Source: Marinomonas lutimaris (GTDB taxonomy: Bacteria > Pseudomonadota > Gammaproteobacteria > Pseudomonadales > Marinomonadaceae). Taken from it: a DNA stretch of 64,000 nt. A program made the translations under genes and the position numbers. The stretch spans positions 1 to 64,000 of the forward strand of contig NZ_JAHLLW010000011.1 in the NCBI RefSeq assembly GCF_019426345.1. Reading direction: 5' to 3'. Positions 1-60,689 of this stretch are shown here, in pieces (the stretch's first letter is position 1; each line of letters starts with the position of its first letter). Under the pieces are notes generated by a model. It made no database searches. It was given only the letters and a program-made list of their open reading frames with translations, and was not told the origin of the DNA.

Positions 1-76
1 TTTTTTGCGCTAAATCATCACCTTCCCGAAAGTTCGGTAAGCCCATCAGACGAAACATGCTCATAGAATCAGGCAT
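1..76 (-). CDS. cofE: F420-0:gamma-glutamyl ligase, N-terminal fragment
   Basis: Only about 25 N-terminal codons are inside the window; the gene runs off the left edge. The visible residues contain GLPNFREGDDLA, which matches the start of CofE/FbiB ligases (a G-L-P-x-x-x-x-G-D-D-L-A pattern). CofE adds glutamates to F420-0 using GTP. A strong ribosome binding site (TAAGGAGCG on the minus strand) precedes the ATG, and the start lies inside the end of cofC, so translation is probably coupled. Position as last gene of a cofG-H-D-C operon supports the call. The family assignment rests on a short segment plus context. Confidence 0.72.
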   Translation of the reverse strand, partial: MPDSMSMFRLMGLPNFREGDDLAQK

Positions 77-785
77 AGTGACGCTCCTTAATGTGCGATT
101 TATTTATGAATAGCGGTCCACTGTCGCGCCATGCTTTGAAGCGTTCAGGTTGACGAATCACCGCTACTTGCAGGTCTTCGCTGTGATCAATATCCAACGC
201 GAGATTGGCAAGATGCAGGCTGCGACAAACCAGTCGATTATTCATTGCATTGGCTTTATGGGCAGAGGCCGAATCGCAGCCATATTCAAAGTGAATCGCA
301 TCAGGTGGTGATGTTAATAACGCATTGGTGCCGCCATCCTTGGCAACGGCAATCACCACTGGCGCATCATGAGCCGCCTTCATCAATGCGATAATTTCCT
401 CTGGGTCCAACGCCGCAATATCGCTAGGGACGATAAGTTGGCTATCGTATCCAGATTGCTTCACCCAATCGCAGGCAAAATCTAACGCGCCGTTTAGACC
501 TTTCTCTCCATCATCAAATAAGGTGTTGGCTTCATAAGATTGAGCAATACTCAGTACTTCAAGGGATTCACTCACCACCAACACGTCTAGCATGGGGAAA
601 TGGCGCTGAAAAAATGCCAAGGTGTTTTCAAACAGTGTCAGGGACAAACTTTCACGAGCTGCATCCGACAAGCTACCAACCAATCTTTGTTTGGAACGTT
701 TAGGCGCTTTCATCGGAATCACCACGCACAGCTTATCGATTAAGTGATAAATGCTTGGCGAATACGTTGCAGAATGATGTTTCAT
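69..785 (-). CDS. cofC: 2-phospho-L-lactate (or analogue) guanylyltransferase CofC
   Basis: CofC activates the phosphorylated three-carbon unit of F420 (2-phospholactate, phosphoenolpyruvate or 3-phosphoglycerate, depending on the organism) with GTP for transfer by CofD. The 238-residue protein is of family length. Near residue 20 it carries the nucleotidyltransferase start VVIPMKAPKRSKQRL, matching the conserved V-P-x-K-x-x-x-x-x-K-x-R-L signature. Further in are NALLTSPP and FEYGCDSASAH, typical of CofC active-site loops. The start codon overlaps the cofD stop by one base (TAATG) and its end overlaps cofE. The sequence alone does not show which three-carbon substrate is used. Confidence 0.88.
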   Translation of the reverse strand: MKHHSATYSPSIYHLIDKLCVVIPMKAPKRSKQRLVGSLSDAARESLSLTLFENTLAFFQRHFPMLDVLVVSESLEVLSIAQSYEANTLFDDGEKGLNGALDFACDWVKQSGYDSQLIVPSDIAALDPEEIIALMKAAHDAPVVIAVAKDGGTNALLTSPPDAIHFEYGCDSASAHKANAMNNRLVCRSLHLANLALDIDHSEDLQVAVIRQPERFKAWRDSGPLFINKSHIKERHYA

Positions 786-1744
786 TAGGCCGCCCTCTGC
801 TTTTTATAAGACAAGGCGAACTCGACCACTTGAGTGAGTAACGCCGTTTTCTCCTCAGAGGTTTTCATTAGGATTGGCGTGACCAACACATCCAAACCTT
901 GCCCTTGCAACCAAGTGGCGTCTTGCTGATCCACATTGTCAATCACCATGCCATGCAAAAAGGAGCTATAACAGTCATAGATGCCTTTTGAATCGATGCT
1001 TTTCCCTGCACTTTCGAGCATTTTATCCGCAGGGCCTTTTACCGTTTTTCCGCCAATTAGTGGCGAAACAGCAATAATATAGGCGCCGCTTTTTTCCACC
1101 GCTTGCTGAATTTCCGGCACAGCGAGAATGGCACCAATACTAACGATAGGATTGCTCGGCGCGATGACAATCAGGTCACTGTTAGCAATTTGCTCTAAGG
1201 CTTCAAGAGTCGGTTTGGCATCAGCGATACCTTGATATTCAATATCCAGTACGTCGGACTGACAATGCTCGCGTACAAAAAACTCTTGGAAAGACAACCA
1301 ACCCTGTGGCGTCTTCACTCGGGTTTGCACTACATCGTTGGTCGGCAACAAAATCGGCACGCTAACGCCATGACGTTTTGCCAAGCGTTCTGTTATTTCA
1401 CTGGCGCTGACGCCTTGGTGCTTTAAATTCGTTCGGTAAATATGCGTGGCGAGATCCAAATCCCCCAGGGTCATCCAAGTGTCTTGCCCTAAGGCTTTTA
1501 GCTCGGTGAGTACTTGGTGCGTTTCGTTTTTACGTCCCCAACCTTGCTGGCGGTCGATCTGATCGCCTAAGGAATAAATCAGCGTATCGATATCTGGCGA
1601 GACCCAAAGACCGTGAAATTCATCGTCGTCAGCAATGTTGCCAATGATCTTGGTCGAGCTGGCGTATTGGCTTTTTGCCAAACCTTCTGCGGCTTTGGCA
1701 CCACCAACCCCGCCAGCCAACAAGGTGATATTTAAACCTGTCAT
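785..1744 (-). CDS. cofD: 2-phospho-L-lactate transferase CofD
   Basis: CofD transfers the activated phospho-three-carbon group from the CofC product to the 7,8-didemethyl-8-hydroxy-5-deazariboflavin (Fo) chromophore, giving F420-0 (dehydro or 3PG variants in other lineages). The 319-residue protein begins with the hallmark LLAGGVGGAKAAEGL nucleotide-binding loop. It also shows IGNIADDDEFHGLWVSPD near residue 35 and SNPIVSIGAILAVP near residue 197, both characteristic of CofD. Start and stop overlap the neighbouring cof genes by one base each (TAATG junctions), so the genes should be translated as one coupled unit. Assignment is secure. Confidence 0.94.
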   Translation of the reverse strand: MTGLNITLLAGGVGGAKAAEGLAKSQYASSTKIIGNIADDDEFHGLWVSPDIDTLIYSLGDQIDRQQGWGRKNETHQVLTELKALGQDTWMTLGDLDLATHIYRTNLKHQGVSASEITERLAKRHGVSVPILLPTNDVVQTRVKTPQGWLSFQEFFVREHCQSDVLDIEYQGIADAKPTLEALEQIANSDLIVIAPSNPIVSIGAILAVPEIQQAVEKSGAYIIAVSPLIGGKTVKGPADKMLESAGKSIDSKGIYDCYSSFLHGMVIDNVDQQDATWLQGQGLDVLVTPILMKTSEEKTALLTQVVEFALSYKKQRAA

Positions 1745-2949
1745 TACGCCACTCCCTGAATCGCAATGCGGTTCGTTAATGCTGAGCTGGCACCATTCCC
1801 TTCAACTAAATAGTCCTTTACCACTTCATATTTGGTACTGCGCTGCACCGCATGCAGACCCGCCGCTTGGATATTGGCGACCATGTCTTCTGGGAACACT
1901 TCTTGACCATGCGTCGCTCCTGCCGCGCGGGAAATACTTTCGTTCATCAAGGTGCCGCCCAAATCATTAGCGCCTGAGCGCAGCATTCTAGCGGCCACAT
2001 CTGGGCCCATTTTTACCCATGAGGCTTGAATATTATCGATATGACCTTGCAGCATCAGGCGAGCAATGGCGTGCATTTTAAAATGCTCGTCTTGGGTTGG
2101 GCCAGGACGAACCTTGTCTGGGTTGTCGTTGTACAAACGGGTTTCGTAATGGATAAAACCTAAGGGAACAAACTCGGTGAATCCGCCGGTTTCTTTTTGA
2201 ATATCGCGTAATAATTTGAGGTGATTTGCCCAATGAATTGGCTGATCAACATGACCGTACATGATGGTAGAAGTCGTCGGTACGCCAACAGAATGGGCGG
2301 CTTTGATAATGCGCACCCACTCTTCTGTAGTGAGTTTATTTTTGGTCAATTGTTTACGTACTTCGGTATCTAAAATCTCTGCCGCTGTGCCCGGCATAGA
2401 CCCCAAACCAAGATTTTTTAACTCGGTCAGAAAGACTTCTGGCTCAAGGCGACCTTTTTTGCAGCCATACCAAATTTCAAATGGCGAAAAGGCGTGAATA
2501 TGAATTTCTGGCACACGTTTTTTCACGGCGATAATGAGGTTTCGGTAATAATCTGCGCCAATTTCTGGATGCAATCCGCCTTGAATACAAACTTCTGTCG
2601 CACCGCGCGCCCATGCTTCTTCCGCTCGATCTGCGACTTGCTCAACGGTTAAAAACTCCGCTTCTTTGTCGCCTTTCTCTTTGGCGAAATTGCAAAATCG
2701 GCAGCCCATGTAACACACATTGGTAAAGTTGATATTGCGCGTAATCACAAAAGTTCCGACATTGCCGACGCGCTTTTCACGTACTTTGTCGGCGGTGTCT
2801 AATACAGCTTGGGCTTCTGCACCTTGCGTAGCAAATAGCACACAAGCGTCTTCGACACTCAGCTCTTCGCCCAATAAAGACTTATCCAAAATTGTTCGAA
2901 CAGATTCGCTCACTTGGGCATTGTTTGACGTTAAAGGAAATAGGTTCAT
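1744..2949 (-). CDS. cofH: Fo synthase subunit 2, radical SAM CofH
   Basis: CofH is the radical SAM enzyme that joins tyrosine to 5-amino-6-ribitylamino-uracil, the first half of deazaflavin (Fo) synthesis. The protein (401 aa) has the CX3CX2C iron-sulfur motif at C79, C83 and C86 in NVCYMGCRFCNFAK. It is followed by CIQGGLHPEI and HIHAFSPFEI, which are CofH/MqnC-family signatures. MqnC and MqnE of menaquinone synthesis are close relatives, but direct coupling to cofG and cofD argues for CofH. Its ATG overlaps the cofG stop (ATGA). In actinobacteria CofG and CofH are fused as FbiC; here they are separate as in archaea and cyanobacteria. Confidence 0.94.
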   Translation of the reverse strand: MNLFPLTSNNAQVSESVRTILDKSLLGEELSVEDACVLFATQGAEAQAVLDTADKVREKRVGNVGTFVITRNINFTNVCYMGCRFCNFAKEKGDKEAEFLTVEQVADRAEEAWARGATEVCIQGGLHPEIGADYYRNLIIAVKKRVPEIHIHAFSPFEIWYGCKKGRLEPEVFLTELKNLGLGSMPGTAAEILDTEVRKQLTKNKLTTEEWVRIIKAAHSVGVPTTSTIMYGHVDQPIHWANHLKLLRDIQKETGGFTEFVPLGFIHYETRLYNDNPDKVRPGPTQDEHFKMHAIARLMLQGHIDNIQASWVKMGPDVAARMLRSGANDLGGTLMNESISRAAGATHGQEVFPEDMVANIQAAGLHAVQRSTKYEVVKDYLVEGNGASSALTNRIAIQGVA

Positions 2950-4082
2950 GCGATAACTCCTCCACTCACTTGAGCAGCACGGCTAACCAGCGACGCGACT
3001 CGTTGCGTTAAATTAGGTGTTAGATATTTATTGTCCTGATGCTGAAAGCGGTCATAAATAGTCAGACGTTCTGCCAGCGAATAACCCAAACCTTCACAAG
3101 CTTGTGCCACGCTACTGATCTGCGGCCATGCTCGTTCTGGGTTAATGAAGTCTTTGGTCAAAGGCGAAATACCGCCCCAATCGTTGATGCCCGCATTGAT
3201 GTAACTGCCGTATTCGACTTCCAAATTTGGCGGTGCTTGTATGCTGATGTCATCGGGCAAGATCAAGCGCGCAACGGCGATGGTGCGCTTCATGTCGTCT
3301 AGATTGGGTTCTTGGTAATTGGCCATTGCCGTGCCTGCTTTGGCGCGAAAGTTCTGAATAATGACTTCTTGGATGTGCCCATAGGCAAGATGGCGATCAC
3401 GAATGGCGATAAGGCTGTTTACTCGGTCTGTCCAGCTTTCACCAATGCCAATAAGGATTCCCGTAGTGAAGGCGATATCAAGTCGACCCGCTTGCTCTAT
3501 GGTGTCGAGTCGACGTTTTGGCGTTTTGTCTGGGCAAGCATAATGAGCTTGGCCTTTCTTGAGTAAATTATTGGACACATTTTCAAGCATCATTCCCATG
3601 CTTGCGGCGACGGGTTTTAGGCGTTTCAGTTCGTCGAATGACAAAGCACCCGCATTCACGTGAGGTAGTAAGCTTGTGTGAGTTAAGACACTTTCGCATT
3701 GGTCATGCAGATAATCTAAGGTACTGTCGTAACCTAAATTAACCAACATGTCGCGAGCTTTCTGATGACGCTCTTCTGGGCGCTCGCCCAAACTGAACAA
3801 AGCTTCTTTGCAATCTAATGCCGCGCCTTCTCGTGCGGTTTTTAACACTTGCTCCGGTGTCATATAGTTAGCGTGAGGCGAATCTGGCGATTGCACAAAA
3901 GTGCAATAACCGCAGCTATCACGACACATATTAGTCAAAGGTATAAAGACTTTTTTTGAATAAGTAAGCTGTTTGCCCCAAGCGTTATCACGCGCTTTAG
4001 CGGCTTCTTGGCAGAGTGCGTACAAGTCTGGCCCAGTAGCAAACTCATAAGATATGGCTTCAGAATCAGAGATCATATTCAC
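2946..4082 (-). CDS. cofG: Fo synthase subunit 1, radical SAM CofG
   Basis: CofG completes the 7,8-didemethyl-8-hydroxy-5-deazariboflavin ring from the CofH adduct. The 378-residue protein has the radical SAM cluster motif C53-x3-C57-x2-C60 in NMCRDSCGYCTF, which is diagnostic for CofG. It also has LFSLGERPEERH near residue 96 and SIQAPPNLE near residue 282. It is the first gene of the F420 operon and overlaps cofH by four bases. The 267 bp upstream contain two RutR-like palindromes and a strong inverted repeat, so transcription may start there under control of the adjacent TetR-family protein; that is inference. Confidence 0.94.
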   Translation of the reverse strand: MNMISDSEAISYEFATGPDLYALCQEAAKARDNAWGKQLTYSKKVFIPLTNMCRDSCGYCTFVQSPDSPHANYMTPEQVLKTAREGAALDCKEALFSLGERPEERHQKARDMLVNLGYDSTLDYLHDQCESVLTHTSLLPHVNAGALSFDELKRLKPVAASMGMMLENVSNNLLKKGQAHYACPDKTPKRRLDTIEQAGRLDIAFTTGILIGIGESWTDRVNSLIAIRDRHLAYGHIQEVIIQNFRAKAGTAMANYQEPNLDDMKRTIAVARLILPDDISIQAPPNLEVEYGSYINAGINDWGGISPLTKDFINPERAWPQISSVAQACEGLGYSLAERLTIYDRFQHQDNKYLTPNLTQRVASLVSRAAQVSGGVIA

Positions 4083-4121: not shown

Positions 4122-4137
4122 TTTACCATTTGGTATA
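4122..4137. promoter_or_regulatory. RutR-like operator 1, upstream of cofG
   Basis: The 16-mer TTTACCATTTGGTATA contains the inverted repeat TACCA-TT-TGGTA. It fits the known E. coli RutR consensus TTGACCAnnTGGTCAA at most positions. It lies about 40 bp before the cofG start, where a repressor would block transcription. Binding is inferred from sequence. Confidence 0.6.
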
Positions 4138-4175
4138 AAAATTAATAGCAATCATTTTGCGCAGAGTAAATTGTT

Positions 4176-4204
4176 TTTATTAGTGCAAAACACGCACTAA
4201 TAAA
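4176..4204. repeat. Perfect 11-bp inverted repeat with 7-nt loop
   Basis: TTTATTAGTGC and GCACTAATAAA are exact reverse complements separated by AAAACAC. Neither strand shows a clear U-tract after the stem, so a simple terminator is unlikely. It could be a second operator or an RNA hairpin in the cofG leader. Confidence 0.6.
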
Positions 4205-4238
4205 GGGCTAGCGGTCTAAAGTTTAGTTAAGTAATAAG

Positions 4239-4254
4239 TTAACCAAAAGGTTAA
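4239..4254. promoter_or_regulatory. RutR-like operator 2, upstream of cofG
   Basis: TTAACCAAAAGGTTAA is a palindrome apart from its centre and fits the TTnACC-N4-GGTnAA core shared with the sites at 4122 and 5200. It lies between the end of the TetR-family gene and cofG. Confidence 0.6.
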
Positions 4255-4266
4255 GATGATGAAAAT

Positions 4267-4309
4267 TGGCGTTTTTTTTACACAATTCAATTGGTCATAA
4301 AAAACGCCA
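4267..4309 (-). terminator. Inverted repeat, possible weak terminator after the TetR-family gene
   Basis: TGGCGTTTTTT and AAAAAACGCCA form an 11-bp stem with a loop of about 21 nt just downstream of the TetR-family stop codon. On the minus strand only a short ATTTTC follows, so termination would be weak. The stem is visible; the function is a guess. Confidence 0.4.
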
Positions 4310-4349
4310 GTTATGAAAATATCAGCAGGAAAATTCGATGAAATTATTT

Positions 4350-5027
4350 TTAATTATTTTTTTTGGCACCAAGAGCGCGCACAACAAAGTCGGTCACCGC
4401 TAATTCCGCTCGTTCAAAATCATCTTCATCTAAACGATGCTTGCCTAATAGCACTTCCATTTGCACCGAGAAATCCGCATAGGTTTGTGTCGCGGCCCAA
4501 ATAGTAAAAAACAGATGTTCTGGATCTATATCGTCGACTAATCCTTTATTTATCCATGACTTAACCAACATAACATCTCGATCAAACTGAGGTTTTAAGT
4601 GGCTAATTAGGTACTCTTTTAAGACAGGTGCGCCACTGATAATCTCATGAGCAAAAACCTTAGAACCATTCGGATACATGCGTGAAAGCTGCATTTTTTC
4701 GCGCACATAACGACGAATAACTGCCTCAGGTGTGTCACCTTGAGTTTCTAGAAAAGACAGCTTTTCTATCCATATATCGAGCATCTCTTTTAACACACGT
4801 TTGTAGAGTAACTCTTTGTTTGGAAAGTAATAAATAAGATTTTGCTTAGAAATATTTGCCGTTACCGCAATCGCTTCCATAGAAGATCCGCTGTAACCTT
4901 TTTCTGCAAATAACACTTCGGCAGAACGTAATATACGTGACTCTAATTCTTCTCTATTAATTGATTGCTTTGTGCGTTTCGCTTTCTTCTCAACCAAAAT
5001 CCAATCCGCCTTAAATAAAAAGTACAT
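4350..5027 (-). CDS. TetR-family regulator, RutR-like
   Basis: This is probably a uracil/thymine-responsive repressor. The 225-residue protein has an N-terminal TetR helix-turn-helix (about residues 30-75) with ISKQNLIYYFPNKELLYKRVL, very close to the E. coli RutR recognition helix region. A ligand domain follows with SRMYPNGSKVFAHEIISGAP, mirroring RutR. It also has IWAATQTYADFSVQ near residue 180, mirroring the RutR segment around its ligand pocket. It is divergent from a pyrimidine-degradation operon, with a perfect-arm RutR-like palindrome in between, and two more sites lie between it and cofG. The start is uncertain: AAGGCGG precedes a TTG at 4997, while the listed ATG has only a weak Shine-Dalgarno. 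Confidence 0.86.
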   Translation of the reverse strand: MYFLFKADWILVEKKAKRTKQSINREELESRILRSAEVLFAEKGYSGSSMEAIAVTANISKQNLIYYFPNKELLYKRVLKEMLDIWIEKLSFLETQGDTPEAVIRRYVREKMQLSRMYPNGSKVFAHEIISGAPVLKEYLISHLKPQFDRDVMLVKSWINKGLVDDIDPEHLFFTIWAATQTYADFSVQMEVLLGKHRLDEDDFERAELAVTDFVVRALGAKKNN

Positions 5028-5199
5028 TCTTTTTTAATCTTATAAGACGCTGTTTTTATTAAACATTATCTTTTTTACAGGTTTTAAAATAGCACAGTCA
5101 GATGACTCTAACGAGCCTTTCTCAGCAAACTTGATTAAAACTTGGCCTACTTATTGCTGACCTAAAAGACAAGTTGTTGATGTTTTTTTATCGACATTT

Positions 5200-5215
5200 T
5201 TTACCTTTTGGTAAA
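5200..5215. promoter_or_regulatory. RutR-like operator 3, between regulator and amidohydrolase operon
   Basis: TTTACCTTTTGGTAAA has perfect 6-bp arms (TTTACC/GGTAAA) around TTTT. It sits 30 bp upstream of the amidohydrolase ATG in the divergent promoter region, a classic place for a TetR-family operator. It shares the ACC-N4-GGT core with the two sites upstream of cofG. Confidence 0.7.
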
Positions 5216-5244: not shown

Positions 5245-6486
5245 ATGCAAGACCTTCGTATCAACGAGCAACGCCTTTGGGACACCTTAATGGAAATGGG
5301 CGACATTGGCGGTACAGAAAAAGGCGGTTGTAACCGTCTTGCAGGAACAGACTTAGACAAGCAAGCCCGCGACCTTTTTGTTTCTTGGTGTGAAGCCTGC
5401 GGCTGTAGCGTTGAAGTCGATAAAATCGGCAATATCTTTGCTCGTCGCTCAGGCACAAACAATGATTTACCCGCTGTTGGAACAGGTAGCCACCTTGATA
5501 CTCAACCTACTGGTGGCAAGTTCGACGGTGTCTTCGGCGTTCTTTCTGGCGTTGAAGTATTACGCACACTTCATGAAAACAACATTGAAACACCCACCGC
5601 AATGGAATTCTCCGTTTGGACCAACGAAGAGGGCTCGCGCTTCCAACCCGCTATGCAAGGCTCAGGAACTTACGTCGGTCGCTTCGATCTGGAAACCGAA
5701 TTAAACAAAACCGACGTCAATGGTATTCGTCTCGGTGACGAACTAGAACGTATTGGTTACTTGGGCGAGATGGAACTGGGCAGCCGGCACATGGGCGCAT
5801 TTTTCGAAGCGCACATAGAACAAGGGCCGATTCTTGAAGACGAAGAAAAAGCCATCGGCATCGTCCGACTAGGCCAAGGTATTCGCTGGTACAACATTGA
5901 GGTAGTGGGTCGCCCTTCTCATTCTGGCACCACGCCAATGCACCTTCGCAAAGATGCGATGTTAACGGCTGCTGCCATTGTTACCGAAATGAATGCCATC
6001 GCACTTCGCCATGAAAATGGCTTGGGCACGGTGGGTTTTATGCAAGTCTGGCCAAATTCACGCAATACGATTCCGGGCAATGTGAAATTCAGCGCCGACC
6101 TTCGTAACCCTAAACCTGATGTATTGCTCACCATGCACGAAGAGCTATTGGCGTTTTGCAAAGAAATCGCTCTCGATCATGGTGTGGAAGTTAACGTCGA
6201 TCCTTTTTGGTATTTCGCTCCAGTGGAGTTCAACGCTTCCGACGATGTAAAAGCCGCTACGGAAAAACTCGGTTATAGCCACATGGACATCTATGCTGGT
6301 GCGGGTCACGACGCCTGTTACATGGCGGATTTAGTACCAACTGGAATGATTTTTACGCCTTGTTTAAACGGTATCAGTCACAACGAAGCGGAATACAGCT
6401 CGCCCGAAGAATGCGCCGCCGGAGCCAATGTGCTGCTACACGCCATGCTCGAAGCCAGCGAACGCATAGCTAAAGAACATCAATAA
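5245..6486 (+). CDS. Zn-dependent amidohydrolase, N-carbamoyl-beta-alanine/amino acid type (PydC/HyuC)
   Basis: This M20-family amidase probably hydrolyses N-carbamoyl-beta-alanine (or an N-carbamoyl amino acid) to the amine, CO2 and ammonia. That is the last step of reductive pyrimidine or hydantoin breakdown. In 413 residues it shows the metal site GTGSHLDTQPTGGKFDG (H83, D94), the catalytic glutamates in TNEEGSRF, AHIEQGPILE, then PSHSGTTPM and GAGHDACYMA, closing with SHNEAE. AGGAG lies 6 bp before the ATG. It is the first gene of an operon with an NCS1 permease and a dihydropyrimidinase. Allantoate amidohydrolase is a close relative, but no other allantoin genes are nearby. Confidence 0.85.
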   Translation: MQDLRINEQRLWDTLMEMGDIGGTEKGGCNRLAGTDLDKQARDLFVSWCEACGCSVEVDKIGNIFARRSGTNNDLPAVGTGSHLDTQPTGGKFDGVFGVLSGVEVLRTLHENNIETPTAMEFSVWTNEEGSRFQPAMQGSGTYVGRFDLETELNKTDVNGIRLGDELERIGYLGEMELGSRHMGAFFEAHIEQGPILEDEEKAIGIVRLGQGIRWYNIEVVGRPSHSGTTPMHLRKDAMLTAAAIVTEMNAIALRHENGLGTVGFMQVWPNSRNTIPGNVKFSADLRNPKPDVLLTMHEELLAFCKEIALDHGVEVNVDPFWYFAPVEFNASDDVKAATEKLGYSHMDIYAGAGHDACYMADLVPTGMIFTPCLNGISHNEAEYSSPEECAAGANVLLHAMLEASERIAKEHQ

Positions 6487-6569
6487 CTCATGATGATAAA
6501 TAAATGAAGAAAACAAAGAACCATTGAATGAAACCAATAAATAATTGAAAAATAGAAGAGGTGGCAAAA

Positions 6570-9559
<2,990 letters not shown>

Positions 9560-9573
9560 AGATAAGCAAAAAC

Positions 9574-9727
9574 AACCCCATCCTAACCTTCCCCTTGGAA
9601 GTGATAAGGGGAAGGGACAGTGACAATTCAGGTCTGCTCCTCCCCCTTGTGTCTTGAAGGGGGAGGTTGGGAGGGGGTTATGAGTGTAGTTCAAGAGCTG
9701 AACCCCATCCTAGCCTTCCCCTTGGAA
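9574..9727. repeat. REP-like cluster of C/G-rich repeats
   Basis: Two direct copies of a 27-mer beginning AACCCCATCCTA and ending CCTTCCCCTTGGAA lie at 9574-9600 and 9701-9727, differing at one base. Between them is an inverted hairpin (CTCCCCCTT/AAGGGGGAG, 9639-9665), and the first copy forms a hairpin with AAGGGGAAG at 9606-9614. The pattern resembles the dispersed CCCTCTCCC-type extragenic repeats of many Proteobacteria. The first hairpin could also end transcription of the dihydropyrimidinase operon. Confidence 0.75.
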
Positions 9728-50714: not shown

Positions 50715-50952
50715 AATTTGCTTGATGAGACTTATTTTGTCAAGCCTAAAATTACGATTTCATAGAGATTCATAATTCCCCAAAAATGATGTGATTTGAT
50801 AGTTTATGAGTTAATCACAACATTCTTGATTGACGGTTTTTTTTCACCAGCAGTACTATGCCAAGGCAAAAATAATTCTAAAACCGCACTTTTGTATTGC
50901 TTGCTTTGCAATTTAAGAAGAAATACAAGGTACACATTAAAGGTATAAAAAC

Positions 50953-51759
50953 ATGTCTACATTACCGAAATTCGGTTTAAACCATATGGTTTGCCCATCC
51001 TATTCCTTGAAAGATTTTCTAACTCTTTCGTCTCAACTTAATGCAAAAACCGTTGAATTTAGGAACGATGTTGGCGAGAACAGCTTAACAGACTTAGCGA
51101 CTGCAAAGATGGCTGGAAAGTTGGCTGATGAGCTCAATATCAAAGTTCTGTCGATAAATGCCCTTTACCCGTTTAATGTTTGGAATGATGAACGTGCCCA
51201 ACAAGCCAGAGACATGGCGGAACTTGCAAAAGCTGCCAAGGCAGAAGGATTAGTGGTTTGCCCTTTAAATGATGGCAATGAGGTAAGTTTCGAAGACCTC
51301 AAATATGCGCTTTCAGAACTCGCAAAAATTTTAGAAGAATATGATCTTAAGGGTTTCGTAGAACCATTAGGCTTCCCAATTTCTTCACTTCGTTCTAAAC
51401 GCGTGGCTATAGAAGCCATTGATGCGATTGGCCAGCAAGATAGATTCTCTCTAGTTCACGACACATTCCACCATAAAGGAGCTGGGGAAGATGAGTTTTT
51501 TCCAGAACGTACAGGCCTAATTCACATTTCCGGCTTAGAAGACAATATCACCTTTAATGACATGCTTGATGGCGACCGTGTTTTAGTTGGCCCAAATGAT
51601 CGACTAGATAATGTCGAGCAGCTCCGTACTTTACTGGCAGCAGGTTATTCAGGCCCGGTGTCATTCGAACCTTTCTCTAAAAAAGTGTGGGATCTTCCAA
51701 ACCCAAAACAAGCGGTTCAAGACAGCATTGATTTTGTGAACCAATCATTAGCTCAATAA
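50953..51759 (+). CDS. Sugar isomerase-like TIM-barrel protein, IolI-like
   Basis: A 268-residue AP-endonuclease-2/xylose-isomerase-like TIM barrel. FVEPLGFPISSLRSK, the metal-site LVHDTFHHKGAG and HISGLED correspond in order to the metal ligands of Bacillus IolI (2-keto-myo-inositol isomerase), which converts between inosose isomers. It is followed by a second TIM barrel (IolH-like) and iolG, so it works in inositol use. Hydroxypyruvate isomerase is a related alternative. Confidence 0.75.
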   Translation: MSTLPKFGLNHMVCPSYSLKDFLTLSSQLNAKTVEFRNDVGENSLTDLATAKMAGKLADELNIKVLSINALYPFNVWNDERAQQARDMAELAKAAKAEGLVVCPLNDGNEVSFEDLKYALSELAKILEEYDLKGFVEPLGFPISSLRSKRVAIEAIDAIGQQDRFSLVHDTFHHKGAGEDEFFPERTGLIHISGLEDNITFNDMLDGDRVLVGPNDRLDNVEQLRTLLAAGYSGPVSFEPFSKKVWDLPNPKQAVQDSIDFVNQSLAQ

Positions 51760-51808
51760 TCACTGACCGAATTCATTCTATAAAAATAAATAATAGGTTT
51801 TTATTATT

Positions 51809-52705
51809 ATGAAAATTGCACTCGATCCCTACATGCACCGCCACCTTTCTTTAGAGGCGCTGTGCCGAGCCACTAAAGAAATGGGCTACGATCACATTGA
51901 ATTGTCACCGCGAGCTGACTTTTTACAATGGTGGACTCGTCCTCGCGTTTACCCTGAGCGCTTGCAAAGCTTTAAAAAAGCCATGAAAGATCACGACGTT
52001 TCATTGTCCACTATCCAGCCCATGTATCGTTGGTCTAGTCCATACGAAGACGAATGGAAAATGGCCATGGACAACTGGAAGCGAACGATTGAGATCGCTG
52101 TCGAGCTGGATAATCCATTGCTTATTTCCGAGTTTGGTCGAGGCGGTTCGCCAGAACGTTCCAATGCTGATCGCCAAGGCATTCATACACCAGAAGCCTG
52201 CGAAAATGCCTTTTGGCGATCAATGGATGTCTTGGTTCCGTTACTTGAAAAGGAAGGCTTAACCTTGTGTGTAGAGCCGCACCCAGAAGATTGGGTGGAA
52301 GAGATGGCGCCTGCTATCGATATCATCAAAACCATTAATTCGTCGGCGGTTCAGTGCTCTTATATCGCGCCCCATTCTTTCTACTATGGGGATGATTTAG
52401 CCGAGACAATTCGCGCCACCAAAGGTGTTTTGCAGCATGCACGAGTAGCAGACACCTACAACCATAAAGGTTCGTCACAGCTACGTTATATCGTCAACCC
52501 ACCTGGCTCTAATGCTCGCGTCCACCAGCATTTAGACATAGGAGAAGGCGAAATAGATTGGGACATATTCTTTAAAACCCTGCATGAAATTGGCTTTAAT
52601 GGCGTGCTATCCAGCTGCGTCTTTGCATGGGATGAAAGAGCTGAACAGTCATCGCGCTTCATGCGTGATGAAATCCAACGCTATGTCGACAAATACTGGA
52701 AATAA
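51809..52705 (+). CDS. iolH: IolH-like sugar isomerase/epimerase TIM barrel
   Basis: A 298-residue TIM-barrel protein resembling IolH of inositol operons: [20 protein letters not shown] at the start, [45 protein letters not shown] and [14 protein letters not shown], which follow the IolH order. The reaction of IolH is not firmly established. It lies 49 bp after the IolI-like gene and 52 bp before iolG, with a weak Shine-Dalgarno (AATAGG) far from its ATG. Confidence 0.82.
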
Positions 52706-52757
52706 CAACCATTTATTGACGACAACCAACAACAAAAATAATGAAAAGGAAACCAAC

Positions 52758-53768
52758 ATGACACTTAAAATTGGCGTAATTGGCACGGGCGCTATCGGCG
52801 CAGACCACACTCGACGCATCACAAATACATTAACTGGTGCAGAAGTCATTGCTCTGACGGATGTAAACCAAGAACAGGCAGAAAAAGTAAAACAATCATT
52901 AGGCCTCAAGGCGACTATTTATAAGGATGGTCATGAGCTGATTGAAAAGAGCGGAGTAGATGCTGTTCTCATAACATCTTGGGGCGGCACTCATGAAGAA
53001 TATGTTCTAGCAGCCATCAAAGCCGGTAAATATGTATTCTGCGAAAAACCACTAGCAACTACAGCTCAAGGCTGTCAGAACATAGTGGACGCAGAAATGG
53101 CCGCAGGAAAACGCCTTGTACAAGTTGGCTTCATGCGCCCCTACGACTCTGGCTACAAAATGCTAAAAGAAGCCATTGACTCAGGTGCTATTGGTGAACC
53201 ATTAATGATTCACGCGGCACACCGCAACCCAAGCGTACCAGAAATGTACATTACACCAATGGCTATTCATGACACGCTTATCCACGAATTGGACGTATTC
53301 CGCTGGTTACTAGATGACGAATATGTATCTGCACAAGTCGTTTTCCCTCGTAAATCAAAATACGCTCACAGCAAAGTTGCCGATCCACAAATCGTCATGC
53401 TGGAAACGAAGAAAGGCACTCGTATAGACGTGGAAGTGTTCGTTAATTGCCAATACGGCTACGACATCCAATGTTCAGTAGTGGGTGAAGAAGGTGTCGC
53501 GAATTTGCCTGAACCTCAAGCTCTTACCATGCGTAAAAACGCCAACTTAGGACAATCCATCCTAACTGATTGGAAAGACCGCTTTATAGAATCCTATGAT
53601 GTTGAACTGCAAGACTTCATTAATGGCGTGCAAGCAGGCAAATTGACAGGTCCATCCTCATGGAATGGCCTAGCGGCTGCGGTATCTGGCGATGCCTGTG
53701 TGAAAGCACAAGAAAGTGGCTTAATCGAACCAATCAACTTGCCAGATCGTCCGGTATTTTACAGTTAA
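52758..53768 (+). CDS. iolG: Inositol 2-dehydrogenase
   Basis: IolG oxidises myo-inositol to 2-keto-myo-inositol with NAD+, the first catabolic step. From the ATG at 52758 (AAAGGAAA upstream) the protein has 336 residues. It has a Rossmann start [18 protein letters not shown], the catalytic EKPLATT and the D-x3-H-type site in [15 protein letters not shown] longer frame from 52584 runs inside iolH and is rejected. It ends the IolI-IolH-IolG unit before a terminator. Confidence 0.95.
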
Positions 53769-53780
53769 ACATGATACGCA

Positions 53781-53816
53781 AATCCCGCCTTAAGTTAGAT
53801 TAAGGTGGGATTCTTT
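53781..53816 (+). terminator. Terminator after iolG
   Basis: AATCCCGCCTTAA/TTAAGGTGGGATT hairpin (53781-53812) followed by CTTTTATTATTT. It splits the inositol genes into two transcripts. Confidence 0.85.
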
Positions 53817-54058
53817 TATTATTTCCAAATTAATAAATGACCAGTAGCGTTCATTTGGTCGTTATACATTTTATTGGAAGCAACAGAGTTCACACACCTA
53901 ACAAGATATAGATTTGCCGCTTAAAACATAAAAAACGTTTTTTTTTGAAAAAATTAAAATATTTGTTTCATTTCGCTGGCATGAAAAGACGAGAAAAACA
54001 CCAAATAAAACACCCAAGTATTTGTTTTTAAATAGTTTTTATATTTTTAAATCGATAT

Positions 54059-54072
54059 GGAATATTTCATTC
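54059..54072. promoter_or_regulatory. IolR-like operator 1 upstream of iolC
   Basis: ATATGGAATATTTCATTCTAAT context at 54055-54076: GGAA and TTCT arms are seven bases apart, one more than the ideal. The 441-bp gap 53769-54209 is strongly AT-rich and contains no gene that I can see, only the iolG terminator and two operator-like sites. Confidence 0.45.
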
Positions 54073-54089
54073 TAATCTATTGAAAATAT

Positions 54090-54103
54090 GGAATATATAT
54101 TCT
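54090..54103. promoter_or_regulatory. IolR-like operator 2 upstream of iolC
   Basis: GGAATATATATTCT contains the perfect palindrome GAATATATATTC and fits GGAA-N6-TTCT. It sits about 107 bp before the iolC start, in the same ATATGG...CTAAT flank as the site 31 bp earlier. Confidence 0.6.
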
Positions 54104-54209
54104 AATATCATTTCAGATATATTTAACAATAAAAAAAACAGCCACTTCATTTTGACAAAGTACTAATTCACCTTGTTGTCATTTCGGCTGATATGGGAGA
54201 TGAAGAACC

Positions 54210-56147
54210 ATGCTCAAAGATAAAACGTTAGATCTTATTTGTCTTGGACGCGCAGCAGTCGATATGTATTCAGAGCAAATAGGCAGCCGTTTAGAAGACG
54301 TTAGCAGTTTTGCAAAATACCTTGGTGGCTCATCAGGCAACATGGCATTTGGTACAGCGCGTCTTGGCTTAAAAAGTGCTATGTTAACGCGCGTTGGTAA
54401 TGAGCACATGGGGCGCTTCGTAAAAGAAGAATTAGCCCGCGCCGGTGTCGATACCAGCCACGTTATTACTGATCCAGAGCGCTTAACGGCCTTGGTAGTA
54501 CTCGGCATTAAAGACCAAGACACTTTTCCATTAATTTTCTACCGCAATGATTGTGCCGACATGGCCGTCAGTAAAGACGACTTTGACGCTGATTTTATTG
54601 GCTCTGCAAAAGCGCTTGTTATTACTGGCACTCACTTCTCTACAGAAAGCACTTACGAAACCAGTAAACAAGCTATTGCCTACGCTAAACAAGCGGGCAC
54701 AAAATGCGCTTTGGACATCGACTACCGTCCAGTTCTTTGGGGATTAACCAGCCCTGGCGATGGCGAAACACGTTTTATTTCCAATGAAAAAGTCTCTGCT
54801 CACTTACAAAGTATTTTGGCTGATTTTGATCTTATCGTTGGGACAGAAGAAGAAGTTCATATTGCAGGTGGCAGCACAGACACTATCACGGCCCTGAAAA
54901 AGATCCGTGAGCTAAGTAGTGCCACTATCGTACTTAAACTTGGTTCTCAAGGCTGTACAGTACTTGAAGGTACAATCCCTGACTCTATGGATGAATTTGA
55001 ACTGCATGTTGGCGTTCGCGTAGATGTACTCAACGTGCTTGGTGCTGGCGATGCTTTCATGAGTGGTTTCTTGCGAGGCTGGATTCGAGGCGAGTCAGCA
55101 GAGCAATCTTGCACTTATGCAAATGCATGTGGCGCTTTGGTTGTATCTCGCCATGGTTGTGCTCCAGCGATTCCAAGTGCAGAAGAATTAGATAATTACA
55201 TAGCTCGTGCAGCACAAATTAAACGCCCAGATTTAGATCGTGAACTAAATCATTTACATCGTGTCACCACAGAACGATTACCTTACGACTGGCAAGATCT
55301 ATGTATTTTTGCCTTTGATCATCGTAAACAACTCTTTGATATGGCTCGTGAAGAAGGTGCAGATCCTTCTCGCATTAAAAGACTCAAACGTCTATTGGTT
55401 GATGCATTAGATGTTGGCGCTCGCGAGCTAGGCGGTAGCCAATACGGCGTATTAATCGACGACACTTATGGTCAAGATGCACTAAATGCCGTTACAGGTC
55501 GTGGCCTTTGGATTGGTCGCCCTGTCGAGTTGCCAAGCTCTCGTCCTATCGAATTAGAAGGTGGCCGCAGTATTGGCTCACGTCTAAAGAGCTGGCCAAA
55601 AGAACACATCGTAAAATGCCTTGTTTTCTATCACTCTCAAGATGAAATAGAAATGCGTGCAGCTCAAGAACGTCAAGTTGTAGAGTTGTATAAAGCCTGC
55701 TGTGCTTCTGGCCACGAACTCTTACTGGAAATTATTCCTCCACGCGACAAAGACTTCGACGACAGTCTATTCACTGACTCGATCAAACGCTTCTATCACT
55801 TAGATGTGCGCCCAGACTGGTGGAAACTACCACCTCAGTCTAAATCGAACTGGCAGGCCATTACAGACATTATTCATCATCATGACAAACACTGCCGTGG
55901 TGTAGTGATGTTGGGGTTGGATGCGCCAATGAACGAACTAAAAGAAGGTTTTGCTAACAGTGCAGGATTTAATATCTGCAAAGGCTTTGCCGTTGGTCGC
56001 TCTATTTTTAGTGAGCCAAGCCGTGCGTGGTTGGGCAATCGTTTTGATGACCAACAACTTATCGATGCCATCGTATCGAACTATTTGGAATTAGTGTCCT
56101 ACTGGAAAGAACGCCACAACACTCAGCCACAACAGAAACAGGCTTAA
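54210..56147 (+). CDS. iolC: Fused 5-dehydro-2-deoxygluconokinase / DUF2090 aldolase-like protein
   Basis: A 645-residue two-domain enzyme. Residues 1-320 are a PfkB kinase (YLGGSSGNMAFGTARLGLKS near residue 36; catalytic VLGAGDAFMSGF near residue 280) that phosphorylates 5-dehydro-2-deoxygluconate. Residues about 345-640 are a DUF2090 domain (LCIFAFDHRKQLFDMA, LLEIIPPRDKDFDD, GVVMLGLDAPM) related to class I aldolases. In other Proteobacteria this fusion is proposed to combine IolC with the IolJ aldolase step. AGATGAAGAACC precedes the ATG. It begins the iolCDEA transcript. Confidence 0.92.
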   Translation: MLKDKTLDLICLGRAAVDMYSEQIGSRLEDVSSFAKYLGGSSGNMAFGTARLGLKSAMLTRVGNEHMGRFVKEELARAGVDTSHVITDPERLTALVVLGIKDQDTFPLIFYRNDCADMAVSKDDFDADFIGSAKALVITGTHFSTESTYETSKQAIAYAKQAGTKCALDIDYRPVLWGLTSPGDGETRFISNEKVSAHLQSILADFDLIVGTEEEVHIAGGSTDTITALKKIRELSSATIVLKLGSQGCTVLEGTIPDSMDEFELHVGVRVDVLNVLGAGDAFMSGFLRGWIRGESAEQSCTYANACGALVVSRHGCAPAIPSAEELDNYIARAAQIKRPDLDRELNHLHRVTTERLPYDWQDLCIFAFDHRKQLFDMAREEGADPSRIKRLKRLLVDALDVGARELGGSQYGVLIDDTYGQDALNAVTGRGLWIGRPVELPSSRPIELEGGRSIGSRLKSWPKEHIVKCLVFYHSQDEIEMRAAQERQVVELYKACCASGHELLLEIIPPRDKDFDDSLFTDSIKRFYHLDVRPDWWKLPPQSKSNWQAITDIIHHHDKHCRGVVMLGLDAPMNELKEGFANSAGFNICKGFAVGRSIFSEPSRAWLGNRFDDQQLIDAIVSNYLELVSYWKERHNTQPQQKQA

Positions 56148-56158
56148 AGGAAATCCAC

Positions 56159-58009
56159 ATGACAACAATAAAACTTACCATGGCCCAAGCCGTCGTCCGA
56201 TTCATGATGGCGCAAAAAATAGAAACAGATAACGGCATCCAGCCTATGTTTGCAGGTGTATGGGGGATTTTTGGTCACGGCAACGTCGCAGGCCTTGGAG
56301 AAGCGCTTTATCAAGTAAAAGACAAACTTCCGACTTATCGCGCGCACAATGAACAAGGCATGGCACACGCTGCTATTGCTTATGCAAAAACGAAAAATCG
56401 CCAACAAATGATGGCCTGCACTGCATCTGCGGGCCCTGGTGCCGTAAACATGGTAACGGCTGCTGCTGTTGCCCATGTGAACCGTATCCCGGTTTTATTT
56501 CTTCCTGGCGATACTTTTGCTACTCGCATGCCTGACCCGGTATTACAGCAAGTAGAAAGCTTTCAGGATATGACCATCACATCGAATGATTGTTTCCGCC
56601 CAGTTAGCCGATTTTTCGATCGTATTACTCGTCCAGAACAGCTAATCACAGCATTGCCACAAGCCATGCGTGTATTGACCGACCCAATTGAATGTGGCCC
56701 TGCAACGTTAGCATTACCGCAAGACGTTCAAACCATGGCGTTCGACTACCCAGTGAGTTTATTCGATGAAAAAATCCATCGTCTACGTCGCCAAACGCCT
56801 GATTTTTATGAGCTAAATGATGCTTTAAAACTAATTAGACAAGCTAAAAAACCAGTCGTTATTGCTGGTGGTGGTCTTCATTATTCTGGTGCATTAAAAG
56901 AATTTGACGCATTTGTCAGTCAGTTCCAACTACCAGTTGGCGAAACACAAGCCGGCAAAGGTGCGCTTCCTTGGGACCACAAACACAACATGGGCAGCAT
57001 AGGTGTAACTGGTGCTGCATCAACGAATAATCTATGCGCCGATGCAGATCTTATTATTGCGGTAGGCACACGCCTTGGGGATTTCACCTCAGGCTCTCGT
57101 TCTCTTATAAACCCAAATGCAAAAATAGTGAGCCTAAACGTGGCTTCCTTTGATGCGATCAAACATAAGAGCCAAGCATTAGTGGGTGACGCTAAATCAA
57201 CGCTTCCTCTATTAAGTAAAGCTCTGCAAGGTTGGAAAATAGAACCATCTTGGATCAAAAAAGCCGAAGCAGAACGCGTTAATTGGCAACAGGTTGTCGA
57301 CAAAGTGACAACTGATCGAGGAACGAGTTTACCAAGCGATGCCGAAGTTGTTGGAGCTGTAAACCGTGCCGCTGGCGAAAAAGACATGGTGGTTTGTGCA
57401 GCAGGAGGTCTGCCTGGTGAACTACAAAAACTGTGGCGTACTCGTTATAACCGCGGCTATCACATGGAATACGGTTATTCCTGCATGGGTTATGAATTAG
57501 CTGGCGGTTTAGGCGCAAAAATGGCGAGTCCAGAGTCCGAAGTTTTCGTTATGGTAGGCGATGGTTCTTACTTAATGCTGAACTCCGAAATAGCTACTTC
57601 GGTGATGTTAGGGAAAAAAATCATCGCCGTTGTATTGGATAACCGCGGTTTTGGCTGTATTAACCGTTTGCAACAAGCTGGCGGTGGCGCAGGCTTTAAC
57701 AACCTTTTAGAAGACTGCTTCAGTGTAGCGGAAGGCGCACCGAAAACAGATTTTGCAGCTCATGCCAAAGCTCTCGGCGCTAACTCGGAAAAAGTCGCCA
57801 ACATTGCAGAATTAGAACAAGCCCTTGTTCGCGCCAAGAATTCATCTATCAGTTATGTCATTACCTTAGATACCGACCCTCTGAAAACAACAGAAGAAGG
57901 GGGGCATTGGTGGGATGTAGCCTTAGCTGAAGTGTCTGAGCGCAAACAAGTCAACGACGCTCGTAAAGAATATGAACAGCGCAAAGCGAAGCAATTTAAA
58001 CATTTGTAA
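56159..58009 (+). CDS. iolD: 3D-(3,5/4)-trihydroxycyclohexane-1,2-dione hydrolase
   Basis: IolD is the thiamine-diphosphate enzyme that opens the cyclohexane ring to 5-deoxy-glucuronate. The 616-residue protein has the three-domain TPP fold. The catalytic glutamate is in YRAHNEQGMAHAAIA (about residue 66), and the TPP/Mg motif is GDGSYLMLNSEIATSVML to NRGFGCINRL (about residues 470-500). AAAGGAAAT precedes its ATG, 11 bp after iolC. Confidence 0.95.
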   Translation: MTTIKLTMAQAVVRFMMAQKIETDNGIQPMFAGVWGIFGHGNVAGLGEALYQVKDKLPTYRAHNEQGMAHAAIAYAKTKNRQQMMACTASAGPGAVNMVTAAAVAHVNRIPVLFLPGDTFATRMPDPVLQQVESFQDMTITSNDCFRPVSRFFDRITRPEQLITALPQAMRVLTDPIECGPATLALPQDVQTMAFDYPVSLFDEKIHRLRRQTPDFYELNDALKLIRQAKKPVVIAGGGLHYSGALKEFDAFVSQFQLPVGETQAGKGALPWDHKHNMGSIGVTGAASTNNLCADADLIIAVGTRLGDFTSGSRSLINPNAKIVSLNVASFDAIKHKSQALVGDAKSTLPLLSKALQGWKIEPSWIKKAEAERVNWQQVVDKVTTDRGTSLPSDAEVVGAVNRAAGEKDMVVCAAGGLPGELQKLWRTRYNRGYHMEYGYSCMGYELAGGLGAKMASPESEVFVMVGDGSYLMLNSEIATSVMLGKKIIAVVLDNRGFGCINRLQQAGGGAGFNNLLEDCFSVAEGAPKTDFAAHAKALGANSEKVANIAELEQALVRAKNSSISYVITLDTDPLKTTEEGGHWWDVALAEVSERKQVNDARKEYEQRKAKQFKHL

Positions 58010-58041
58010 TATAACCAATTTACCGGTCGGAGAATAATAAT

Positions 58042-58941
58042 ATGAGCGTCAGAATCGGCATTAACCCATTAACATGGACAAACGACGATCTACCAACACT
58101 GGGAGCAGAAACCTCCCTTGAAACCTGTTTGACAGAAGGCAAACAAGCAGGCTTTAGCGGCTTCGAATTAGGCCAAAAATTCCCTCGCACGCCAGAAGTG
58201 CTTGGCCCTATCTTAAAAGCGCATGGTTTGGACTTGGTTTCAGGCTGGTTCAGCGGCGAATTATTAACCCGCAGTGTAGAAGAAGAGATCGAAGCCATTA
58301 AACCTCATCTTCACTTATTAAAATCCCTTGGTGCGAAAGCCATGGTGTACTGCGAAGTAACAGGCTGTATCCATGGACAAATAGAAACCCCATTGTCGCA
58401 CCGCCCTATTATCAGCGAAGAAAAGATCGCTGAAATGAGTAAGAAGCTGACTCAAGTCGCAGACTACTGCCTATCTGAAGGCGTTCAAATTGCTTACCAC
58501 CATCACATGGGAACCGTCATTGAAAGCCAACACGAAGTTGACTTGTTGATGAAATACACCGGCCCTTCTGTTGGCTTACTTTTAGATACGGGCCACATGA
58601 CTTTTGCAGGCGGTAATCCATTAGAAGTTCAAGCAAAACACGCTGATCGTATCATTCACGTGCATTGCAAAGATCTCCGCCCTGAGATCTTAAAAGACGC
58701 TAAGAACCGCGATATAAGCTTCTTGAATGCGATGTTAAATGGCGTATTTACTGTACCTGGCGATGGCTTTATCGATTACAGCAGCTTGTTCAAACAACTT
58801 AAAGCCAGCAACTATTCTGGCTGGTTAGTGGTAGAAGCAGAACAAGATCCAGCCGTTGCGCACCCATTAACTTACGCAACGCTTGGAGCAAACAACCTAA
58901 AAGCGCTATGCGCTGAATCTGGGTTAGAAATCGTAAAATAA
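58042..58941 (+). CDS. iolE: Myo-inosose-2 dehydratase
   Basis: IolE dehydrates 2-keto-myo-inositol to the trihydroxycyclohexanedione used by IolD. The 299-residue TIM barrel starts with IGINPLTWTNDDLP, an IolE hallmark. It has the metal ligands in YHHHMGTVIESQ, LLDTGHMTFAGG, HVHCKDLRPEIL and VEAEQDPA. CGGAGAATAATAAT precedes the ATG, 32 bp after iolD. Confidence 0.95.
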   Translation: MSVRIGINPLTWTNDDLPTLGAETSLETCLTEGKQAGFSGFELGQKFPRTPEVLGPILKAHGLDLVSGWFSGELLTRSVEEEIEAIKPHLHLLKSLGAKAMVYCEVTGCIHGQIETPLSHRPIISEEKIAEMSKKLTQVADYCLSEGVQIAYHHHMGTVIESQHEVDLLMKYTGPSVGLLLDTGHMTFAGGNPLEVQAKHADRIIHVHCKDLRPEILKDAKNRDISFLNAMLNGVFTVPGDGFIDYSSLFKQLKASNYSGWLVVEAEQDPAVAHPLTYATLGANNLKALCAESGLEIVK

Positions 58942-58959
58942 TCGCCCTCTTTTATTCAT

Positions 58960-58991
58960 GAGGCTAACGCTAGAAGAATAGTGTTAGCCTC
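58960..58991. terminator. Hairpin between iolE and iolA
   Basis: GAGGCTAACGCT pairs with AGTGTTAGCCTC (12 pairs, one G-T) around an 8-nt loop. No U-tract follows, so it may attenuate or protect the iolCDE mRNA end rather than stop all transcription. Confidence 0.55.
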
Positions 58992-59023
58992 AACAAAAAC
59001 ACATGCAAACGTTAGGTATTCTC

Positions 59024-60526: not shown

Positions 60527-60641
60527 GCATTTATAGACATAGTACCAAGCAAAGTTTTTCCCAATACTATTCTATGTAACGGGATCACCCTAGCTCAGTC
60601 GCAGATTGTTTATTGTCTAACTCTCTAGTAAGCGACTTTTT

Positions 60642-60667
60642 AGCCCACCTTTTGGTGGGCTTTTTTT
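60642..60667 (+). terminator. Rho-independent terminator after iolA
   Basis: AGCCCACC/GGTGGGCT stem with TTTT loop followed by seven T residues. Confidence 0.92.
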
Positions 60668-60689
60668 GTCTCGTATTCATTAATATTTT

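Follow-up and report, generated by a model that had tools for sequence, protein, structure and literature searches.

RutR-type operators upstream of F420 biosynthesis genes in Marinomonas suggest a uracil-responsive regulon with a candidate F420-dependent reductase

Introduction

The closest described system to the locus analysed here is the reductive Pyd pathway of pyrimidine breakdown (PydA/PreTA, PydB, i.e. HydA, and PydC, with the regulator PydR). The Pyd pathway and this locus share a RutR-like TetR regulator, a dihydropyrimidinase, a ureidopropionase-type amidase and a nucleobase transporter; some relatives of the locus further share AptA and a semialdehyde dehydrogenase. They differ in that the genome studied here has no PreA over cut-off; F420 biosynthesis genes belong to the predicted regulon instead, joined in relatives by NpdG and by a luciferase-fold F420 enzyme.

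The second point of comparison is Escherichia coli RutR and the rut operon, with which the locus has in common a TetR-family regulator, the form of the operator and all five uracil contacts. RutA is an FMN monooxygenase; it is a luciferase-fold protein that acts on uracil, and is only a distant relative of the enzyme considered below. The E. coli system differs also in that the regulator of our locus falls below the RutR equivalog cut-offs. The closest solved fold to the candidate enzyme is that of Mer, the F420-dependent methylenetetrahydromethanopterin reductase, for which another substrate is expected.

In Pseudomonas putida PydR is a RutR-like repressor of the dihydropyrimidine dehydrogenase gene, according to a title in the references of PMC7332683. 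Reductive ring-opening pathways with a replaced electron donor or reductase, as proposed here, have two precedents: PydAc, which passages of PMC7332683 present as ferredoxin-dependent and still a PydA homologue, and an F420 yanthine reductase proposed in Chloroflexota, which in the part of PMC12507026 that deals with it concerns uric acid. RutR regulons have been reconstructed in 68 proteobacterial genomes, in a paper whose main text does not contain the term F420 (PMC5343134). The original prediction on this DNA was made with no described link of this kind known to its author; we likewise found none in the open-access literature among the matches listed, although the regulon tables of PMC5343134 may list cof genes.

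We propose that the locus is quite probably a uracil- and thymine-inducible regulon for reductive pyrimidine catabolism in which F420 would replace the usual first-step route, i.e. a known pathway in a new form with a candidate new enzyme.

Results

Layout of the locus

The window, i.e. the whole stretch of 64,000 nucleotides analysed here, is the start of contig C3 in the draft assembly of a 4.54-Mb genome. The closest named relatives among the matches listed are Marinomonas pontica and M. shanghaiensis, whose cofG genes are 96 and 95% identical to that of the window. The features of the locus are collected in Table 1.

Table 1. Features of the cofG-rutR-hyuC locus, in window coordinates.
Feature	Position	Strand	Basis
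cofE, F420-0:gamma-glutamyl ligase, first 25 codons, cut by the contig end	2..76	-	DNA match
cofC, 2-phospho-L-lactate guanylyltransferase	69..785	-	TIGR03552, 148.9 bits, cut-off 105
cofD, 2-phospho-L-lactate transferase	785..1744	-	TIGR01819, 291.6 bits, cut-off 257.45
cofH, FO synthase subunit	1744..2949	-	TIGR03551, 500.1 bits, cut-off 374.1
cofG, FO synthase subunit, gene 1 of the F420 operon	2946..4082	-	TIGR03550, 461.6 bits, cut-off 213.35
RutR-type operator 1, TTTACCATTTGGTATA	4122..4137		one mismatch to TTnACCnnnnGGTnAA
Presumed cofG promoter	4142..4170	-	TTTACT (4165-4170), 17-nt spacer, extended -10 TGC-TATTAA (4142-4147); alignment read by eye
RutR-type operator 2, TTAACCAAAAGGTTAA	4239..4254		exact; 117 bp upstream of operator 1
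RutR-like TetR-family regulator	4350..5027	-	best NCBIfam match RutR, 174.8 bits; TetR_C_3 PF08362
RutR-type operator 3, TTTACCTTTTGGTAAA, before hyuC	5200..5215		exact
hyuC-like Zn-dependent N-carbamoyl amidohydrolase, presumed beta-ureidopropionase	5245..6486	+	TIGR01879, 415.4 bits, cut-off 204
NCS1-family nucleobase transporter	6561..8054	+	PF02133, 317.4 bits
hydA, dihydropyrimidinase	8117..9559	+	TIGR02033, 585.2 bits, cut-off 393.25

Four genes of the F420 set (cofG, cofH, cofD and cofC) exceed their family cut-offs, and cofE is present on the contig as 25 codons. This start of cofE was identified by DNA comparison, C3:4-182 matching the cofC/cofE junction of M. shanghaiensis, whose full-length cofE reaches 251.8 bits for TIGR01916 (cut-off 180.65). 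The Pyd-type dihydropyrimidinase and N-carbamoyl amidase are both present above cut-offs, and the transporter is slightly under the cut-off of TIGR00800 (335.7 against 353.1 bits). The gene calls of the original prediction for cofG, the regulator and the hyuC-NCS1-hydA block hold, as does the placing of the regulator between the two operons; we add that the regulator gene is oriented towards cofG.

The F420 operon in relatives ends with a TIGR03842 protein

In relatives the operon runs cofG-cofH-cofD-cofC-cofE, followed by npdG (NADPH:F420 reductase) and by a gene for a luciferase-family protein of 333-346 aa. That of M. shanghaiensis reaches 519.9 bits for TIGR03842 (cut-off 295.45), a hypoth_equivalog of NCBIfam described as an LLM class F420-dependent oxidoreductase, with no function given. 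In the genomes of the window's order and genus the scores for this family range from 479 to 530 bits, one of the matches being truncated.

For a wider comparison we used 82 loci, namely the best 80 of at least 586 cofG relatives and two plasmids, the window and the loci L110, L113 and L114 being excluded; these loci are partly non-independent, eight of them being Marinomonas. Gene presence was scored by bit-score thresholds chosen for this analysis. TIGR03842 is present in 42 of these best-matching loci and plasmids. Among the 42, npdG is found in 38, cofE in 40, the RutR-like regulator in 32, hyuC in 25 and hydA in 21; the corresponding numbers in the 40 others are 4, 6, 0, 1 and 2. At least one of hydA and hyuC accompanies TIGR03842 in 27 of 42 loci, against 3 of 40 in its absence. 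The whole comparison of the 42 with the 40 is confounded by ancestry, 25 of the 40 not being labelled Proteobacteria.

The cluster is also carried by plasmids. On a Leisingera plasmid, annotated genes for an NCS1 transporter, a dihydropyrimidinase, a Zn hydrolase, an aminotransferase and a transhydrogenase face a cofG-H-D-C-E-npdG-TIGR03842-regulator block. A Paracoccus plasmid has the F420 block with TIGR03842, and no annotated pyrimidine gene within 14 kb. On a Streptomyces plasmid, the sole plasmid of Actinobacteria for which a match above the cut-off was found, the TIGR03842 gene (590.5 bits) starts 11 nt after the dihydropyrimidinase gene hydA (554 bits), and no cof gene turned up in the 17 kb that were read. 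In Rhodococcus a more distant protein stays below the cut-off (228.5 bits).

Some neighbouring genes may be mentioned here. The Streptomyces plasmid carries, near hydA and TIGR03842, an aminotransferase distantly like AptA (L110:3080-4117, 29% identity) and a nitrilase-type hydrolase (2067-3005). Transhydrogenase genes, pntA and/or pntB, adjoin the cluster at L111:5254-8271 and in L035, L037, L040, L049 and L051 (Rhodobacterales, Halomonas-type), as expected if NADPH drives F420 reduction. The cof cluster of a record titled Nocardioides marinus (L047) is Rhodobacterales-like; there may be an error in its title or in the sample.

A fold prediction for the M. pontica TIGR03842 protein (29-sequence alignment, pLDDT 88.4) gives a model with the luciferase fold of F420 enzymes. 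The best structural match is the F420-dependent Mer (Z 35-36, the top match reaching 35.7, with 26-28% identity), followed by other F420 enzymes. RutA with uracil shares the modelled fold at Z 25, with 13-14% identity in structural alignments. Over 43 TIGR03842 proteins, that of Streptomyces included, the invariant positions include a block WF..MVGNHVAD (223-234). The alignment with Mer is poor around this block, which is a candidate substrate-site signature.

Operators in the window and in the genome

Three palindromes with the core ACC-N4-GGT had been claimed at this locus. All three are found at their positions (Table 1), operators 2 and 3 being exact and operator 1 carrying one mismatch relative to TTnACCnnnnGGTnAA. 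As predicted, two sites are upstream of cofG, both between rutR and cofG, and one is in the divergent promoter region of the pyrimidine operon, operator 3 being located in the rutR/hyuC gap, 30-45 nt before hyuC.

The bare core is not rare: 10 copies are present in the window versus 7.2 +/- 2.8 in shuffled sequences. Six exact copies of the 16-mer TTnACCnnnnGGTnAA are present in the 4.54-Mb genome. Two are at this locus, 1 kb apart, and of the other four three are within reading frames and one is between reading frames. When two mismatches are allowed there is no genome-wide enrichment, with 2530 forward matches versus 2908 for a reversed control pattern. As the core is near chance and the loose 16-mer is not enriched, the case for the operators is carried by the exact sites and by their conservation.

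Nine Marinomonas sequences, window included, were aligned upstream of cofG. Operator 1 (TATACCAAATGGTAAA on the cofG strand) is invariant in all nine. The core of operator 3, in front of hyuC, is likewise invariant in nine of nine Marinomonas sequences. Operator 2 is recognisable in seven, five of them exact and two with one mismatch; it is degenerate in L028 and lost in L031. All nine also retain TTTACT and TG-n-TATTA, with a spacing of N17/18 and a TGn extension. If this element is read as the cofG promoter its start point falls inside operator 1, so operator 1 likely covers the presumed transcription start of cofG. A promoter scan, whose rule requires T at position 6, called neither a promoter nor a terminator.

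Between the two cofG operators there is an inverted repeat TTATTAGTGC-N7-GCACTAATAA (TTRGTGC-N7-GCACTAA, window 4177-4203), which is retained with changes in most of the nine Marinomonas sequences. Its reading as a sigma-54 -24/-12 site was rejected: the GG is not conserved, and in L030 the spacing differs.

Conservation of the operators across species

In the 82 loci a box was scored when 11 or more of the 12 positions of TTKACCN4GGTMAA were found within 250 bp upstream of a gene. A box precedes cofG in 33 of the 82 (best 80 of at least 586 relatives plus two plasmids), for 0.17 expected from shuffles, and these 33 split into 28 of the 42 loci with TIGR03842 and 5 of the 40 without. In the same set of best matches, boxes are found before hyuC (12/26, 0.10 expected), before the regulator gene (9/31, 0.03 expected) and before aptA (4/9, 0.10 expected). 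The control genes of this set are almost devoid of boxes: none before cofH (0/72), the TIGR03842 gene (0/42) or mmsdh (0/8), and one before cofD (1/55). Boxes precede hydA, which is operon-internal in many loci, in 1 of 23 cases and ncs1 in 2 of 19.

The operators span Marinomonas, Vibrio, Halomonas and Rhodobacterales. In four loci (L042, L043, L044 and L058) the cofG box is present and there is no rutR, hydA or hyuC in the stretch examined. Such boxes, in loci without a nearby regulator, hydA or hyuC, speak for a genuine regulon. The Marinobacterium stanieri locus (L041) has boxes before cofG, an omega-aminotransferase gene, the NCS1 gene and a gene of 238 aa which has no family match at 1e-30, and two looser boxes lie some 0.5 kb ahead of genes for cytosine deaminase and permease; TIGR03842 was not found in the stretch examined.

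As a separate observation, L041 (11318-15409), L056 and L057, which belong to Marinobacterium, Amphritea and a relative, have a cofG without cofH or TIGR03842 in the stretch examined, and RutR-type boxes near NCS1 and aminotransferase genes.

The regulator

The window's regulator is below the RutR equivalog cut-offs, with 174.8 bits versus 368 for TIGR03613 and 159.2 versus 230 for NF011584. By that test it is RutR-like and not RutR. The closest solved structures are those of E. coli RutR (E about 5e-43). The uracil contacts of RutR, as given in passages of PMC10891134, are W77, Y97, W167, Q171 and Q179'. All five are retained in 33 of 33 regulators, i.e. the window protein and 32 others of the locus set. 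From these contacts and the 16-bp palindromic operators we regard the regulator as a putative RutR-like, uracil-responsive repressor, predicted to bind the operators and to be released by uracil or thymine.

The regulatory link between F420 and pyrimidines put forward in the original prediction gains support from the operators, whose range extends from Marinomonas to Vibrio, Halomonas and Rhodobacterales, and from the retained uracil contacts. It is well supported by sequence that the F420 genes would be under the same uracil-sensing switch as the genes for uracil breakdown.

A variation of the regulator was also observed: T replaces K52 in 8 of the 32 proteins (L047, L051, L053, L060, L063, L064, L066 and L111). 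All eight loci have a TTTAyy-N4-AGTCAA site upstream of cofG, in the exact form TTKACT-N4-AGTMAA in two of them. A co-variation of repressor and operator is possible, and only a lead, since the same form of site is found in L048 and L054, whose regulators keep K52, and a GGT-type 11/12 box is also present in three of the eight K52T loci.

Co-occurrence with hydA and mutual exclusion with PreA

The comparison of uracil routes in the window's genome covered the Pyd-type genes PreA, hydA and hyuC. No PreA was found over the cut-off in this genome, the best match reaching 48 bits for a cut-off of 335. Wider samples were analysed with E-value limits of 1e-80 for PreA and 1e-110 for hydA at the level of the order, and of 1e-60 for PreA at the level of the genus. 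A phylum-wide sample had TIGR03842 in 1 of 388 genomes, too few for a test of exclusion; the order and genus samples were therefore used.

Of 48 Marinomonas genomes, 24 have TIGR03842; hydA is present in the same 24 and in the window's genome, and PreA in none of the 48. The 244 genomes of the window's order comprise 10 with TIGR03842, 15 with PreA and 24 with dihydropyrimidinase. None of the 244 has both TIGR03842 and PreA, and hydA accompanies TIGR03842 in 9 of 10 genomes and PreA in 9 of 15. The association of TIGR03842 with hydA has a P of 1.7e-9 in the 244 genomes and the exclusion between TIGR03842 and PreA within the 24 hydA carriers a P of 0.004, both values ignoring relatedness. The TIGR03842 genomes of the order belong to four families (f1, f6, f37 and f39), and in f37 TIGR03842 is found in one genus and PreA in another.

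Discussion

Proposed mechanism

In the absence of pyrimidine the RutR-like repressor would occupy the boxes before cofG and hyuC and block transcription. Uracil or thymine would bind the repressor, which would then be released. F420 would be made by CofG-H-D-C-E and reduced with NADPH by NpdG, and with F420H2 the TIGR03842 luciferase-fold enzyme would convert uracil or thymine to the dihydropyrimidine. Ring opening by HydA would follow, HyuC would free beta-alanine (or beta-aminoisobutyrate), and AptA and the semialdehyde dehydrogenase, where present, would carry the product on.

We propose an F420-dependent uracil reductase on the joint grounds of co-occurrence, exclusion, regulation and fold; it best explains these four together and is probably correct. 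The fold does not give the substrate, and the specificity for uracil is presumed. We lean, a little less firmly, towards the fuller statement that TIGR03842 is an F420H2-dependent dihydropyrimidine dehydrogenase unrelated to DPD/PreTA, that many Proteobacteria keep a uracil-induced F420 pathway mainly for that reaction, and that Actinobacteria use the same enzyme beside hydA.

Several observations are counted against this model. In 9 of the 42 TIGR03842 loci (best 80 of at least 586 relatives plus two plasmids) hydA, hyuC and rutR are all below thresholds in the stretch of 7-29 kb, and in 14 of the 42 no box upstream of cofG reaches 11/12. In the order, one of the ten TIGR03842 genomes (G105) lacks hydA at the limit used, and 6 of the 24 hydA genomes, the window's own and five others, have neither reductase. 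The position of the regulator under the RutR equivalog cut-offs and the end of the operon in the window's strain count in the same direction.

Alternative readings

The expectation that an F420 reductase fills the missing dihydropyrimidine dehydrogenase step is supported by the absence of PreA over the cut-off, in this genome and throughout the 48 of the genus, and by a candidate that ends the operon in relatives; the window's strain may still have this enzyme. Its assembly, which is rated 100% complete, contains neither TIGR03842 nor npdG, nor the remainder of cofE. The absence would fit a deletion of the operon end, F420 being no longer made and the cof genes being relics. When the cofE-npdG-TIGR03842 DNA of M. 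shanghaiensis is compared with the window's genome, it matches at the start of cofE and in two short repeat-like stretches near the far end of the query. Several features speak against such a loss. C3 begins inside cofE, and contig C22, found with the sequence further on, ends 144 bases past a match to L027 20818-21134; C3 and C22 flank the gap, so by the map of L027 about 6.6 kb are unassembled. Since both flanks are contig ends, an assembly gap is probably a better reading than a clean deletion. Moreover cofC, cofD, cofH and cofG have intact reading frames, the operators are preserved, no other of the 48 Marinomonas genomes has hydA without TIGR03842, and two other Marinomonas assemblies (G622 and G625) also split hydA and TIGR03842 across contigs. 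We thus consider that relic cof genes in this strain are quite unlikely.

Less unlikely, yet still improbable, is a reading in which the regulon stands as described but the TIGR03842 enzyme serves a different step or a different ring compound, for example a substituted pyrimidine, a hydantoin, a purine-derived ring or malonic semialdehyde. HydA and HyuC both belong to broad families, and the NCS1 protein is also similar to allantoin permease (267 bits, under the cut-off). A Kiritimatiellae locus (L055, 4061-8034) encodes a 60%-identical luciferase-family protein, with an ORF 2 kb away whose N-terminus resembles, as we assume, an SsnA-type amidohydrolase, perhaps a purine version of the same idea. 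An F420 luciferase-family reductase has also been proposed for a uric acid intermediate in Chloroflexota, in the relevant part of PMC12507026. Against such substrates stand the uracil contacts kept by every one of the 33 regulators, the nature of the mutually exclusive partner, PreA being a dihydropyrimidine dehydrogenase subunit, and the boxes of L041 before NCS1 and aminotransferase genes and, at a distance of about 0.5 kb, upstream of the genes for cytosine deaminase and permease. Finally, the F420 and pyrimidine genes could travel together by the chance of horizontal transfer, the boxes serving their neighbours only. The cluster is indeed patchy in the genus (24/48) and is on plasmids in Leisingera and Paracoccus. 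The association is nevertheless kept through several different gene orders, and the boxes stand directly before cofG, at varying distances, in many genera, including loci without a nearby regulator or hydA; chance transfer is thus very improbable.

Significance

If the F420-dependent uracil reductase is confirmed, it would explain in concrete terms why a group of marine Gamma- and Alphaproteobacteria make F420, and would assign a function to an oxidoreductase family known in NCBIfam by number only. Reductive uracil breakdown would gain a further entry step, without homology to PydA. The F420 content of these bacteria would be switchable by uracil, which is easily measured and may help F420 production.

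Further features of the window

A repeat of about 50 bp is located 3' of hydA (9567-9624) and recurs across many contigs of the genome. Far from the locus, at about 50900-62100, the window contains ORFs which from their N-termini or short starts we take to resemble myo-inositol catabolism genes. One of these ORFs, at about 59150-60526, presumably resembles methylmalonate-semialdehyde dehydrogenase.
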